From the NCBI RefSeq assembly GCF_001758225.1, contig NZ_MAST01000007.1:62001-126000 (forward strand): a stretch of DNA of 64,000 nt, given 5' to 3'. A model generated the notes under the pieces. The model was given only the letters and a program-made list of their open reading frames with translations. It did no database searches and had not been told where the DNA came from. The position numbers and the translations under genes were made by a program. Numbering within the stretch: the first letter of the stretch is position 1; each line of letters opens with the position of its first letter. Below are positions 6,607 through 12,153 of this stretch, in pieces. This DNA is from Humibacillus sp. DSM 29435. GTDB taxonomy: Bacteria > Actinomycetota > Actinomycetes > Actinomycetales > Dermatophilaceae.

Positions 6607-7038
6607 CTAGAAGATGCCGGGAACCACCTCCTCGGTGATGTCGGCGAAGCTCTGCTCGCTCGCGGCCAGGTAGGTGTTCCACCCGGCGCTGTCCCAGACC
6701 TCGAGTCGCGACCCGGTTCCGATGACGGTCACCTCACGGTCGAGGCCGGCGTACTGGCGCAGGTTTGCCGGGATGGTGAAGCGGCCCTGCCGGTCGGGCA
6801 CCTCGTCGGAGGCGCCCGACAGGAACACCCGCAGGTAGTCGCGGGCGGACCGGTTGGTCGTGGGCGCGGCCTGCAGGCCCTGCGCCACCTTCACGAACTC
6901 GTCCATGGGGTAGATGAAGAGGCAACGCTCCTGGCCCCGCGTGACCACGAGGCCGTCAGACATCTGGTCGCGGTACTTCGCCGGCAGGATCAGGCGGCCC
7001 TTCTCATCGAGCCGGGGGGTGTGCGTACCGAGGAACAC
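6607..7038 (-). CDS. mraZ: Transcriptional regulator / cell-division protein MraZ
   Basis: MraZ is an AbrB-fold DNA-binding protein at the head of dcw operons; in characterised bacteria it binds short direct repeats at its own promoter and represses the cluster. The two tandem MraZ half-domains are seen as [20 protein letters not shown] and, later, [16 protein letters not shown] chose the GTG at 7038, which gives 143 aa beginning at FLGTHTP, the usual family length. AAGGGGAGG lies about 8 nt upstream. The open frame runs to 7206, but the extra 56 residues overlap the promoter and operator. A GTG at 7047 is a possible alternative. Confidence 0.93.
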
Positions 7039-7094: not shown

Positions 7095-7125
7095 CCCACT
7101 CTACTCCACTTTCCTCCACGGTCAA
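7095..7125 (-). promoter_or_regulatory. mraZ promoter overlapped by a triple GTGG direct-repeat array (MraZ operator)
   Basis: On the minus strand TTGACC (7125-7120) is followed after 16 bp by TAGAGT (7103-7098), a plausible -35/-10 pair. The same DNA holds three GTGG(A/G)G repeats starting at 7119, 7109 and 7099, spaced exactly 10 bp, so they lie on one helical face. Characterised MraZ proteins bind direct repeats of this spacing. Because the array covers the promoter, autorepression of the dcw operon is the simple inference. The expected transcript starts near 7090, about 50 nt before the GTG. Confidence 0.8.
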
Positions 7126-7179
7126 CGACGAACACGTCAGTTTTGGCCCCCTCATCGCACGTTTGCGCAGGTCAGCGAC

Positions 7180-7199
7180 GTGGTCGGAAGTGGAGGGGA
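7180..7199 (+). promoter_or_regulatory. Degenerate GTGG repeat pair (possible weak MraZ site)
   Basis: GTGG occurs at 7180 and again at 7190 on the plus strand. The 17-mer GTGGTCGGAAGTGGAGG matches the main MraZ-type array at 13 of 17 positions. It lies between the two better arrays in the mraZ-moxR intergenic region. No promoter elements are evident around it. Confidence 0.4.
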
Positions 7200-7370
7200 A
7201 CGCCACCCCTCTCCCCTACCGCCCCTACGGCATCCGGCCGGATGCCGTTCATCCACCACCGAGACGGGCCCCGAGCGCTCGTCGCCGCCGCGCGACAGAC
7301 CCAGATCCAGCCTGCTGACCCCGATATAGCCCGTCGGCGAGTGAACTCTGAGCGTTCCCCGCGCGTTGTG

Positions 7371-7394
7371 GTGGAGGAAAGTGGAGTCCGGAGT
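7371..7394 (+). promoter_or_regulatory. Inverted second copy of the MraZ-type repeat array upstream of moxR
   Basis: GTGGAGGAAAGTGGAGT at 7371-7387 is identical over 17 nt to the minus-strand array upstream of mraZ (7119-7103), but points toward moxR. The repeats start at 7371 and 7381; a third, expected at 7391, has decayed to GAGTG. The -10 position seen at mraZ is not preserved here, so this looks like an operator or a decayed promoter duplicate. It lies about 160 bp before the moxR start. The rest of the 7039-7545 gap holds no credible gene. Confidence 0.6.
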
Positions 7395-7545
7395 GTTTCG
7401 GAGACAGAGAAGCTTCACCGGGTCACGAATTCGGGGTCTTCTTCCTGTGGGCCGTCTCATGAGGGAGGATCACTGAACGGATCTCGCGTCGACCGTCTGG
7501 GCGAGGGCGGGCAACTGACCGATCAGCGGCACAGCGGAGGACAGA

Positions 7546-8583
7546 GTGACGATGGAATTCACCGGGAGCGTTCCCGGCCTGAACCGTGGCGAGCAGCGCG
7601 AACCGGGCCAACCTCGCGACCGCGGCCCGGCGGCCGACCTCGACCTCGTCAGAGACGTGGCAGACCGGCTCGTCGGGGCCATGACGACGGTCATCGAGGG
7701 CAAGGCCGAGGTCGTGCGAACCACCGTCACGGTGCTGTTCGCCGGCGGGCACCTGCTCATCGAGGACGTGCCCGGCGTCGGCAAGACCATGTTGGCCAAA
7801 GCCCTCGCCCGCTCCATCGACGCGTCGGTGCGCCGCATCCAGTTCACGCCCGACCTGCTGCCGAGCGACGTGACGGGCGTCAGCATCTTCAACCAGGACG
7901 CCCGGCGGTTCGAGTTCCGCCCAGGGGCCATCTTCGCCAACGTGGTGGTGGGCGACGAGATCAACCGCGCCTCGCCGAAGACCCAGTCGGCGTTGCTCGA
8001 GTCGATGGAGGAGCGCCAGGTCACCGTCGACGGCACCACGTACGAGCTGCAGGCGCCGTTCATCGTGATGGCCACCCAGAACCCCATCGAGATGGAGGGC
8101 ACCTACCCGCTTCCCGAGGCCCAGCGTGACCGGTTCATGGCCCGCATCTCGATGGGCTACCCCTCCCCTGCTGCCGAGCTGGAGCTGCTCGAGGTGCACG
8201 GGTCGCGTTCCCCGCTCGACTCACTGCGGCCCGTCACCGACGCCGCGACGATCAACAGCGTCGTCGAGGCGGTGATGCGGGTGCACGCCAGCCCCGCGAT
8301 CCGCCAGTACATCGTCGACCTGGTGAACCGTTCGCGCTCCACCTCGGCGCTGCGGCTCGGGGCCTCCCCCAGGGCCGGACTGCACCTGCTGAGGTCGGCT
8401 CGTGCGCACGCCGCCCTCGAGGGGCGCGACCATGTGATCCCCGACGACGTGCAGCTGCTCGCACCCGCCGTGCTGGCGCACCGGCTGATGCCCTCGAGCG
8501 AGACCCAGCTCGCCCGCCGCACGACGACCGAGGTCGTCGGCGACCTGCTGCGCCAGGTGCCCGTGCCTCCCCAGGCTCGCTGA
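7546..8583 (+). CDS. MoxR-family AAA+ ATPase
   Basis: MoxR ATPases act as chaperone-like partners of DUF58/VWA proteins encoded beside them. The 345-aa product has Walker A PGVGKT at about residues 76-81, Walker B VVVGDEINRASPKTQ, the sensor motif ATQNPIEMEGTYPLPEAQRDRF, and a C-terminal lid domain. GGAGG at 7536-7540 stands 5 nt before the GTG at 7546; an ATG two codons later is an alternative. The gene heads a plus-strand operon with the DUF58 and transglutaminase genes, divergent from the dcw operon. A role in envelope or cell-wall maintenance is inferred from this context. Confidence 0.92.
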   Translation: MTMEFTGSVPGLNRGEQREPGQPRDRGPAADLDLVRDVADRLVGAMTTVIEGKAEVVRTTVTVLFAGGHLLIEDVPGVGKTMLAKALARSIDASVRRIQFTPDLLPSDVTGVSIFNQDARRFEFRPGAIFANVVVGDEINRASPKTQSALLESMEERQVTVDGTTYELQAPFIVMATQNPIEMEGTYPLPEAQRDRFMARISMGYPSPAAELELLEVHGSRSPLDSLRPVTDAATINSVVEAVMRVHASPAIRQYIVDLVNRSRSTSALRLGASPRAGLHLLRSARAHAALEGRDHVIPDDVQLLAPAVLAHRLMPSSETQLARRTTTEVVGDLLRQVPVPPQAR

Positions 8584-8590
8584 GCTACCC

Positions 8591-9838
8591 ATGCGATCGT
8601 TGCGCGGCGTCCTGACCGTTCGGGGACGGGCCTTCGTCGGTTCGGGAGTGCTGCTCGTGCTCGCCGGCGTCATCTTCGGCTTTCGCGACCTGACCCGCTT
8701 CGGCGTGCTGCTCCTGGCCCTGCCGATCATCTCGGGTGTACTGGTCAGAACCCGGCGCGCGCGCATGCGCATCGAACGACACGTCTCACCCGAACGGGTC
8801 AGCGTGGGGCAGCCGGCCCAGGTGGCGCTCTCCTTCGAGAACGTCTCGACGGCGACGACCCCGCTCTTCCTCGCCGAGGAGCGCCTCGACTACGTGCTCG
8901 GCGACCGCCCACGCTTCGTCGTCGGCCGCATCCCGACCGGGCGGGTACGCACCATCGACTACACGGTGCACTCGGCCCTGCGTGGTCGCCACCAGCTCGG
9001 TCCGCTGGGGGTGCAGGTGCAGGACCCCTTCGGCCTGGCCAACCGCAATGCGGTGCTGGAGGGCAGAGCCGAGCTGGTCATCCTGCCCGCCGTCCACCCG
9101 CTGTCGCAGGCCCGGCGCTCGAGCGCGGGCGTGGGTTCAGAAGGCGAGCAGGCGCACCTGATCGCCCTGCACGGCGAAGACGACGTGACGATCCGCGAGT
9201 ACCGCGAGGGTGACGACCTGCGGCACATCCACTGGCCGGCCACGGCCCGCACCGGTGACCTGATGGTGCGTCAGGAGGACCGGCCCGCCCAGCGCCGTGC
9301 CATCCTCATGCTCGACCCGCGGCCCGCGGCTCACGGTGGCAGCGGGGCCACCGGGTCGTTCGAGTGGGCGGTCACGGCGGTGGCCTCGGTCGCCGTGCAC
9401 CTCTGCGAGTCCGGGTATGCGGTGCACCTGGTGTGCGCCGAGACCGTGGCCAGCTCACGGGCCGCCGAGACCATGGCCGCGCCGGAGATCCTCGACGCCC
9501 TGGCCGTGACGTCCCAGCACGATGAGACCGGCAACGACGAGATCCTTCGCGCGGCCCAGACCCTGGCTGGCGGCGGTGGCCTCGTGGTGGCCGTCGTGGG
9601 GCCGACCGACCCCGAGGTGACGGCCCGGATCGCGAGCCTGCGCCAACCGGGCACGACCGCCCTCGCCTTCGTGCTGGATGCCGCCTCGTTCGGCGACGCG
9701 CCAGGGGCCGACGACGTCGCGGGACACCTCGAGACCCTGCGGTCCGGCGGCTGGCGCACCGTTGCCGTCAGCCGTGACGACTCCGTGACCCACGCGTGGT
9801 CAGCGCTGACGGCCTCGACGGTGGGGACGAGCCGATGA
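8591..9838 (+). CDS. DUF58 domain-containing membrane protein
   Basis: The 415-aa product has two hydrophobic segments near the N-terminus (about residues 14-47), then a long soluble region. The DUF58 signature DDVTIREYREGDDLRHIHWP, followed by ATARTGDLMVRQ, lies near residues 197-226. DUF58 proteins are the usual partners of MoxR ATPases; their biochemical role is poorly defined. The gene begins 7 bp after moxR and its stop overlaps the transglutaminase start as ATGA, so the three products are probably made together. Confidence 0.9.
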   Translation: MRSLRGVLTVRGRAFVGSGVLLVLAGVIFGFRDLTRFGVLLLALPIISGVLVRTRRARMRIERHVSPERVSVGQPAQVALSFENVSTATTPLFLAEERLDYVLGDRPRFVVGRIPTGRVRTIDYTVHSALRGRHQLGPLGVQVQDPFGLANRNAVLEGRAELVILPAVHPLSQARRSSAGVGSEGEQAHLIALHGEDDVTIREYREGDDLRHIHWPATARTGDLMVRQEDRPAQRRAILMLDPRPAAHGGSGATGSFEWAVTAVASVAVHLCESGYAVHLVCAETVASSRAAETMAAPEILDALAVTSQHDETGNDEILRAAQTLAGGGGLVVAVVGPTDPEVTARIASLRQPGTTALAFVLDAASFGDAPGADDVAGHLETLRSGGWRTVAVSRDDSVTHAWSALTASTVGTSR

Positions 9839-12153
9839 GCCGCCGGCGCTGGCGCATCGCACTGTTGGCCGCCCTGGCCACTCTGGCGGCCGTCTACCCC
9901 GTCACGAGCCTGTTCCAGAGCTCGGCGTGGCTGAGCCCGGCCATCGTCATGATCGCGGTCTCGACGGGCGTCGGCCTGCTCATGCGTGGCCTCACCCGTT
10001 CGCGGGTGCTCGTCGTGCTCGTCCAGCTCGTCGTGACCGCCTACGTGATCCTGGCGCAGTTCGCCGGCAACACCTTCTTCCTGCTCCTGCCGACCATCTC
10101 CACCCTCGAGGCCGCCAACGACTACGGGCTGGAGGCGCTCGACACCCTGGCCCGGTACGCCGCCCCGGCCCCGCTCGGCGACGGCGTCACCTTCTACCTC
10201 GTGATCATCGTGACCCTCGTCGCCATCAGCGTCGACGCCATGGCGGCGACCTGGCGCAGCCCCGCCGCCGCCGGCCTGCCGCTGCTGGCCGCCTACCTCG
10301 TCACCGCCGCCAACGGCGACTCCACTCTCGCCCTGCGGTTCTTCGTGGTTCCGGCCGCGCTCTGGCTCCTGATGCTGCACACCACGGCGCGCGCTCAGTT
10401 CGGTCGATGGAGCACGACCAGCGCCACCGACGAGCAGGCCCGCCCGGTGGTGGCCCAGGACGGCGCCGCGATGCGCTCGTTCAGCACGGGCGCCGCCAAG
10501 CTCGGGCTGGCCGGCCTCGTGCTCGCGCTCGTCGTGCCGGTGGTCGTGCCACACTTCCCGCCGCGCTATCTGACCGAGGGCCTGGGTCGCACCAGCGGCG
10601 ACGGCGGCAGTGGCGGCAGCGTGGGCTTCAACAACACCATCGACCTGACCCGCAGCCTCAACAACGACGACGACTCACCGGTGCTCAAATACACCACTAC
10701 GGGGTTCACGCGCAGCCCCTTGCGGGTGCTGGCCACCGGCTACTACTCACGCGGTGAGTGGTTGGCGGTCAAGGACTCCAACGAGGTGGGGCAGCCGCAG
10801 CCGTTGCCGCCCCCGAGCGATCGCAACGACTACGAGATCACTGTCTCCGACAACACCCTGGCCGCGCCGAACATCGCCGCCCCGTACCCCGTCGTCGCGG
10901 TCGCGATGGACGGCACGCCGTGGACCATCGACCCGGTCACCCGTGACGTGCGGGTCTCACAGCCGGTGTCGAGCTACCGCGTCACGTACGCCGACATTGC
11001 CCCACTGCCCTCGGTGCTGCGTGAGTCCGGCACGCCCGACTCCCCCGACATCGTCGACGACGACCTCGCCGTGCCCGACACGGCCCGTGACCTGCTCGAC
11101 TCGTGGTCGAAGAAGGTCACGGCCGGCAAGACCAACCCGCTCGACAAGGCCATCGCGATCCAGGACCACCTTCGCTCGCCCGAGTACACCTACACCCTCG
11201 ACCTCGGGGAGCCCCTTCGCGACGACGCCGGGCGGATCGTCGAACCCATCCGCACCTTCTACGAGACCAAGCGCGGCTACTGCGTGCAGTTCGCGACCGC
11301 CATGATCATGCTGGCGCGAGCCCAGGGCATCCCCGCCCGCATGGCCATCGGGTTCCTGCCCGGCACGAGCGTCGACGGCAAGTACGTCGTGCGAGCCTCC
11401 GATGCCCACGCCTGGCCGGAGCTGTTCTTCCAGGGGTACGGCTGGCTCCGTTTCGAACCCACCCCGGGTGCCCGTTCCGGCACCCCGCCGCCGTATGCCG
11501 TCGAGGGCGCGAGCGACGGATCGCGTGGAGGTGGTCGCGCCCCGAGCGAGTCCGCGTCAGGCAGGGCGACCTCGCAGGCACCGGTCCCGTCGGCGACGCC
11601 GTCCCAGGCGCCGGCGACCTCCGCGCCCTCGTTCACCGACTCGCTCGGGTCGGTGTTCAGCCTGCGCAACATCGTCACGGCCCTGACGCTGCTCGTGCTG
11701 CTGCTGGCGATCTTCGTCATGCCCATCACGGCCTCCCTCGACCGGGCCCGACGGCGGCGGCAGGCGGTGACGCGCCAGGATCTCGTAGAGGTCGAGTGGG
11801 ACGACCTGACCTCTCACCTGCGTGACCTGGGGCTACCCGCGCCCCCCGGCGACACGCTGCGGCAGACGCGAGACCGGTTCATCCACGACGGACACCTTGG
11901 GGTCGAGAACGCCGACGCCGTGCGCCGGGTGACGATGACGCTCGAGAAGGCCCGCTACGACCGGCCGGAACGCACCTCGGTCGAGGAGGCCGAGGCGTTG
12001 CACCACGACATCCGGTCGATCCGCCGCGAGGTCGGTCGCACCCGGGCGAGCTCCACCCGCCTCCGCTCCTTCCTCTGGCCCGAGGCCGGCGTCTCGATCT
12101 GGCGTGACCTCCCGTCTCGCCTCGCTGACCTCGTCGGCCGCCGCGGCCGCTGA
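9835..12153 (+). CDS. Membrane-anchored transglutaminase-like protein (TgpA family, DUF3488-transglutaminase-DUF4129)
   Basis: The 772-aa product begins with a cluster of transmembrane helices (about residues 5-230). An extracytoplasmic transglutaminase-like domain follows, with catalytic Cys483 in RGYCVQFATAM and His525 in DAHAWPELFF; GWLRFEPTPG closes the fold at the usual third-residue position. A Ser/Pro-rich linker, one more transmembrane helix and a cytoplasmic DUF4129-like tail (DTLRQTRDRF) complete it. I chose the ATG at 9835, which overlaps the DUF58 stop codon, rather than the open-frame start at 9796. The protein may be a protease or cross-linker acting on the envelope; the substrate is unknown. 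Confidence 0.9.
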   Translation: MSRRRWRIALLAALATLAAVYPVTSLFQSSAWLSPAIVMIAVSTGVGLLMRGLTRSRVLVVLVQLVVTAYVILAQFAGNTFFLLLPTISTLEAANDYGLEALDTLARYAAPAPLGDGVTFYLVIIVTLVAISVDAMAATWRSPAAAGLPLLAAYLVTAANGDSTLALRFFVVPAALWLLMLHTTARAQFGRWSTTSATDEQARPVVAQDGAAMRSFSTGAAKLGLAGLVLALVVPVVVPHFPPRYLTEGLGRTSGDGGSGGSVGFNNTIDLTRSLNNDDDSPVLKYTTTGFTRSPLRVLATGYYSRGEWLAVKDSNEVGQPQPLPPPSDRNDYEITVSDNTLAAPNIAAPYPVVAVAMDGTPWTIDPVTRDVRVSQPVSSYRVTYADIAPLPSVLRESGTPDSPDIVDDDLAVPDTARDLLDSWSKKVTAGKTNPLDKAIAIQDHLRSPEYTYTLDLGEPLRDDAGRIVEPIRTFYETKRGYCVQFATAMIMLARAQGIPARMAIGFLPGTSVDGKYVVRASDAHAWPELFFQGYGWLRFEPTPGARSGTPPPYAVEGASDGSRGGGRAPSESASGRATSQAPVPSATPSQAPATSAPSFTDSLGSVFSLRNIVTALTLLVLLLAIFVMPITASLDRARRRRQAVTRQDLVEVEWDDLTSHLRDLGLPAPPGDTLRQTRDRFIHDGHLGVENADAVRRVTMTLEKARYDRPERTSVEEAEALHHDIRSIRREVGRTRASSTRLRSFLWPEAGVSIWRDLPSRLADLVGRRGR

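Follow-up and report, generated by a model that had tools for sequence, protein, structure and literature searches.

Repeat arrays between mraZ and moxR

Which gene do the inverted repeat arrays between mraZ and moxR serve? The question arises in Humibacillus sp. DSM 29435, in a 64,000-nucleotide stretch of contig NZ_MAST01000007.1 (positions 62,001 to 126,000; hereafter the window), where mraZ and moxR are transcribed divergently with 507 bases between their starts (Table 1). The gene for the cognate MraZ (Pfam PF02381) lies at the locus itself, and its nearest named relatives in sequence searches are those of the actinobacteria Intrasporangium, Terrabacter and Janibacter. A first-pass annotation of this DNA had described MraZ-type repeats over the mraZ promoter, together with an inverted copy that was taken to suggest that MraZ may also control the moxR operon. 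As detailed below, the repeats, their position at the likely promoter and their conservation stand, and the assignment of the inverted copy to moxR is not supported as a general purpose.

Table 1. Features of the mraZ-moxR region, with positions counted in the window
Feature	Position	Strand	Basis or remark
mraZ, first gene of the dcw cluster; GTG start at 7038	6607..7038	-	Pfam PF02381 MraZ, two stretches, E 2.7e-40
Array A, three boxes of MraZ type GTGGAGGAAA, GTGGAGTAGA, GTGGGGGAAG	7119 down to 7090	-	Sequence; profile over 143 genus labels
Promoter-like element of mraZ, TTGACC (7125-7120), 16 nt, TAGAGT (7103-7098)	7098..7125	-	Sequence; A-anchored profile over 143 genus labels
GCAGGTCAG, conserved one-orientation element between A and B	7167..7175	+	CAGGTCA counts
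Array B, inverted pair GTGGTCGGAA GTGGAGGGGA	7180..7199	+	64 bp from the distal box of A
Array C, inverted pair GTGGAGGAAA GTGGAGTCCG	7371..7390	+	255 bp from A, 191 bp from B
moxR, divergent neighbor of mraZ	7546..8583	+	Pfam AAA_3, E 1.4e-64
DUF58 protein	8591..9838	+	Pfam PF01882
TgpA-type transglutaminase	9796..12153	+	Pfam TgpA_N and Transglut_core

The three boxes of array A follow each other at exactly 10 bp when read directly on the minus strand, occupy the spacer of the promoter-like element and overlap its -10, so that the array covers the likely mraZ promoter, as had been proposed. Anchored on A and built from one locus for each of 143 genus labels, the consensus on the mraZ strand reads GTTGACGGTGGAGNNAAGTGGAGTANNGTGG, the sharpness of which (including the TA of the -10) is in part built in, since the anchor search favors portions of the pattern. 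The same 10-bp direct repeats with a GTG core, three in A and two each in B and C, identify all three arrays as MraZ-type, and both B and C are located upstream of A inside the intergenic region. The 17-nt perfect copy in opposite orientation is confirmed (positions 7371-7387 in C against 7103-7119 in A), and the weaker pair noted earlier (GTGGTCGGAAGTGGAG at 7180-7195) is part of array B. Searched with up to one mismatch, the 17-mer occurs at only two places in the 5,023,713-base genome, A and C, with no match to the control. A stricter pair motif (GTGGNGNNAAGTGGNG) has three genome matches, two of them at this locus, against one for its reversed control, and a looser motif has 8 against 25. 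The open reading frames around two further places (L036 for the looser motif and L318 for the stricter one) gave no clear lead.

Conservation of the inverted arrays

We assembled 278 mraZ upstream regions, including the window and some duplicates, and scanned the region upstream of A for box pairs over up to 400 bp, ending at moxR (41,621 bases in total). The genus-level counts exclude 35 named loci (L042-L076) by which the window's family would be represented again, and one locus (L248) that was too short at 100 bases; 22 of the 143 genus labels are names and the others numbers, one genus may stand twice, and near-copies across labels include the pairs L041 and L006, and Micromonospora and f42 g123. 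Strong inverted pairs were found 158 times under 85 of the 143 labels, as opposed to 6 matches under 6 labels for pairs on the mraZ strand, 24 (20 labels) for the reversed control and 2 for the complement. Leaving out L041 changed little (84 of 142 labels inverted vs 6 of 142 on the mraZ strand). In the window's family, with one locus per genus, B was recovered in 39 of 45 genera, C in 36 and either one in 43. Thus, the alignment of relatives that the first-pass annotation had called for finds the inverted arrays conserved; their presence in relatives removes the objection, absence, that it had itself named. Neither B nor C was detected, at one locus per genus label, in families f16 (0/6), f20 (0/2), f21 (0/7), f25 (0/4), f33 (0/3), f36 (0/3) and f40 (0/3). 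The arrays are therefore widespread rather than universal and, being absent from the scans of many families, B and C would be dispensable for MraZ control in some places. A class-wide search with the pattern matched 101 of 394 genomes, although many among the listed matches look like chance.

A held-out set of 83 mraZ loci was drawn from other families of the window's order, among 134 genomes with a match, and three near-copies of the discovery set (L368, L370 and L372) were dropped. The resulting 80 loci include families f2 and f4, which are also in the discovery set, and may share genera with its named loci. Inverted pairs numbered 127 in 64 of the 80 loci, compared to none on the mraZ strand, 16 (13 loci) in the reversed control and one in the complement. 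Base composition alone speaks for the notion that such arrays are chance or compositional repeats of GC-rich intergenic DNA. The excess of inverted pairs over the opposite-strand, reversed and complement counts in both sets makes this origin extremely improbable and, together with the genome counts in the window's own species, leads to its rejection.

The survey also recovered loci in which the distal box pairs are tandemly multiplied upstream of mraZ (L436, L415, L131, L096 and L302), in steps of 22-23 bp (two turns) or about 12 bp. One locus labelled Vibrio cholerae strain 35D (L109, WNZI01000013.1) has a Micrococcaceae-like mraZ/DUF3040 region and is probably contamination or wrongly labelled. 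One assembly (G219) contains mraZ twice, each time behind a similar upstream region, which points to either a duplication or a mixed assembly. In genus g84 of family f26, none of 11 sampled genomes (6-10 Mb) had an mraZ match.

Association with mraZ rather than moxR

Array C is on the moxR strand and precedes the start of moxR by 175 bp, and B or C is found in 43 of the 44 genera of the window's family that have moxR as the neighbor. Both observations suit the proposal that C (and B) serves the divergent moxR-DUF58-transglutaminase operon as a MraZ operator and so ties envelope genes to those of division. The arrays persist, however, where the neighbor is different. Among 32 loci with a co-directional DUF3040 gene upstream (identity confirmed by Pfam in four examples), 19 keep the inverted arrays in the interval from DUF3040 to mraZ, in which the search showed no divergent gene; an inverted array thus does not need a divergent gene. 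The other 13, from 8 small f33 genomes and 5 Arthrobacter, had no array at the threshold. Arrays were also present in all nine loci with a MurT match upstream (about 2 kb away in three of them and, in one of those three, co-directional) and in a genus without moxR adjoining mraZ (g11), which has an inverted pair at 271 (L023 and L026).

Nor did the array travel with moxR in the loci examined. Twelve genomes have moxR away from mraZ; 40 moxR-family matches were found in 11 of them, and 30 were examined from 600 bp upstream. None of the 30 had a same-strand array within those 600 bp and one had an array on the opposite strand; seven reach at least 61% identity and are therefore likely orthologues, and L331 matches weakly. 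In each of these 12 genomes, mraZ itself retains an inverted array. Outside the window's family, labels with moxR did not carry B or C more often (11 of 28) than labels without it (32 of 58), a comparison that leaves out loci with less than 120 bases of region and is biased because regions ending at moxR are shorter. Further, the distance from A to the moxR start, extrapolated from alignments, served as a control for the phasing described below and had no period (R = 0.176, reached by 440 of 500 jitter sets). A conserved block proximal to moxR lies downstream of C at a distance that varies among 16 loci of the window's family, and C is therefore not inside it. The block itself spans about 7420-7470 on the plus strand (GGTCACGA ... 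ATGRGAGARGATCA in relatives) and is possibly the moxR promoter or leader.

The neighbor-gene, moxR-locus and phasing tests together reject moxR as a general target, and make it quite unlikely that C and B are operators of the moxR operon; the control that the first-pass annotation assigned to the inverted copy is thus not supported. The arrays follow mraZ and not any particular upstream gene. A side effect of C on moxR is possible in the window's family, where moxR is the usual divergent neighbor.

Helical phasing of the arrays

We measured the distances between arrays from the -10 element, which is not repeated, so that the 10-bp period of A cannot create phasing. The B-A spacing had its best period at 11.15 bp (R = 0.774, n = 92 genus labels), with peaks at 54-55, 63-67, 74-78, 86-89 and 98-99 bp and scattered larger values up to 133. 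The C-B spacing had its best period at 10.75 bp (R = 0.679, n = 76) and fell into groups at 103-106, 114-118, 124-126, 134-140, 146-149, 156-161, 168-172, 179-183, 189-191 and 199-200 bp, with five values outside (22, 23, 49, 72 and 129). None of 500 jitter sets reached the observed R for either spacing. Array B is better anchored than C: counted as distinct genus-spacing values, the B-A distances cluster at 63-67 bp and peak again roughly one, two and three turns from there. In the sequences themselves, loci with other B-A spacings differ by genuine insertions and deletions in the stretch from A to B, and their boxes are not mis-registered.

The jitter null ignores shared ancestry, and so do the p-values of the held-out set given below. 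As a harsher test against ancestry, we counted each distinct spacing once, whereupon the observed R was reached by one of 500 jitter sets for B-A and none for C-B. With one locus for each of the sequence clusters (212 clusters at 85% over 150 bp), R was 0.783 for B-A (n = 108) and 0.692 for C-B (n = 74), reached by none of 1000 sets in either case. Outside the window's family, the B-A phasing held (n = 42, R = 0.716, 0/500) and that of C-B was weaker (n = 22, R = 0.618, 7/500). The C-A spacing was phased more weakly (R = 0.455), with 0 of 500 jitter sets reaching R by genus label, 256 by distinct values and 467 outside the family; by sequence cluster, its R was 0.480 (n = 102, 0/1000). The length of the leader, which gauges what ancestry alone can yield, gave R = 0.258, reached by 3 of 500 sets by genus label and by all 500 with distinct values. 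Tested at the period and phase set beforehand on the discovery loci, the held-out loci reproduced the phasing for B-A (n = 33, mean cosine 0.734, p ~ 1e-9) and C-B (n = 31, 0.560, p ~ 5e-6); the value for C-A was 0.429 (n = 47, p ~ 2e-5). Thus, the B-A and C-B spacings change mostly by whole helical turns.

This geometry bears on whether B and C are surplus sites, titration sites or points of nucleation, by which the pool of free MraZ would be buffered whatever their placement. The pile-up of extra pairs at 22-23 bp steps in some lineages (for example L436 and L415) is what such a depot could produce; simple titration would have no use for the phasing, the one-sided orientation or the favored distance of 63-67 bp, and we regard it as very improbable.

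A putative looping control region of the mraZ promoter

Arrays spaced in whole helix turns suggest DNA looping by MraZ, and we consider it reasonably probable that the three arrays act as a single control region for the mraZ (dcw) promoter, in which MraZ bridges arrays on the same face of the helix and loops the promoter. MraZ bound at A would block the mraZ promoter, and free subunits of the same or of a contacting MraZ ring would bind B and, in many lineages, also C, both presented on the preferred helix face and in inverted orientation. Bridging would bend the 65-255 bp between the arrays into a loop, which could strengthen autorepression and make it more cooperative.

The layout has well-known counterparts. 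In the lac, gal, ara, deo and lambda CI systems, an operator at the promoter is paired with distant operators and the effect depends on whole-turn spacing, with loop periods near 11 bp in vivo; an operator at the promoter that recurs at a distance, inverted and in phase, is how the sites of bridging repressors are arranged. The whole-turn spacing and the period of 10.7-11.2 bp found here resemble those loops. The repressors in question belong, however, to other protein families and bind palindromic operators, whereas the arrays of the window are short inverted tandem repeats known from sequence.

That MraZ is the protein on these arrays is inferred from motif identity, as the boxes match the site (AAAGTGKN3)3 published for Mollicutes MraZ (PMC5282649). 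MraZ has been described in other species as an octamer that binds repeats (PMC5282649; PMC7761207), which makes an oligomeric partner plausible; structures have been solved (1n0e, 9qlr, 9qlg and 9sx6) and the protein autorepresses in E. coli (PMC8475190). The mraZ promoter of Burkholderia cenocepacia carries four 7-nt repeats with 3-nt spacers (PMC7761207). The arrays of the window share with those of E. coli, Mycoplasma and B. cenocepacia the GTG-core repeats of 10-bp period at the mraZ promoter; a single promoter array is described in these accounts, to which the window adds two phased inverted arrays 64 and 255 bp upstream. The open MraZ literature, represented largely by titles and the beginnings of abstracts, mentions promoter-proximal repeats only, and neither distal inverted arrays nor looping by MraZ appeared there.

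The main rival of looping is an activator site at B, where MraZ or another protein that binds the boxes would touch RNA polymerase, an arrangement that requires phasing but no loop. Array B lies about 65 bp upstream of A on the preferred helical face, and same-face phasing fits a polymerase contact of this kind. The CAGGTCA element between A and B gives it additional weight. Within 140 bp of A the element occurs in the forward orientation under 56 of the 143 genus labels and in reverse under none, its positions fall at turn-like intervals, and it is present under 14 labels that have no B, in 10 of them at the usual 51-53 bp. Contact with polymerase accounts for the phasing of B to A but not for that of C to B, and C, at 135-290 bp upstream and phased to B, is far for direct contact. 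We therefore judge an activator site at B unlikely.

The element may have a binder of its own. The mraZ promoter of Dietzia is among the binding sites of MtrA (PMC9602371), a likeness that would allow GCAGGTCA to be another factor's site, and our guess is a second regulator such as MtrA; passages of PMC2945938 and PMC13189361 contain no sequence that decides the matter. Between B and C, the window also contains a perfect 22-nt palindrome (ACGGCATCCGG/CCGGATGCCGT, positions 7227-7248), an imperfect version of which is visible in a locus of the same genus (L004).

Returning to the looping of the mraZ promoter by MraZ, a bolder version would have a single MraZ ring hold A, B and C together across much of the Actinomycetes, wrapping the dcw promoter in a multi-point loop. 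We find this conceivable and lean slightly against it. If true, an octameric ring would be almost fully occupied by the seven boxes of the window genome (3+2+2), MraZ would use its ring shape to bridge DNA, and distal pairs multiplied in tandem at 22-23 bp, as in some genera, would extend the bridging. The idea of a moxR regulon was plausible and is probably wrong, and the mraZ-centered result redirects it to the promoter of the dcw cluster. There, the widely conserved three-array layout in whole helical turns offers a precise and cheap test of DNA bridging by MraZ.
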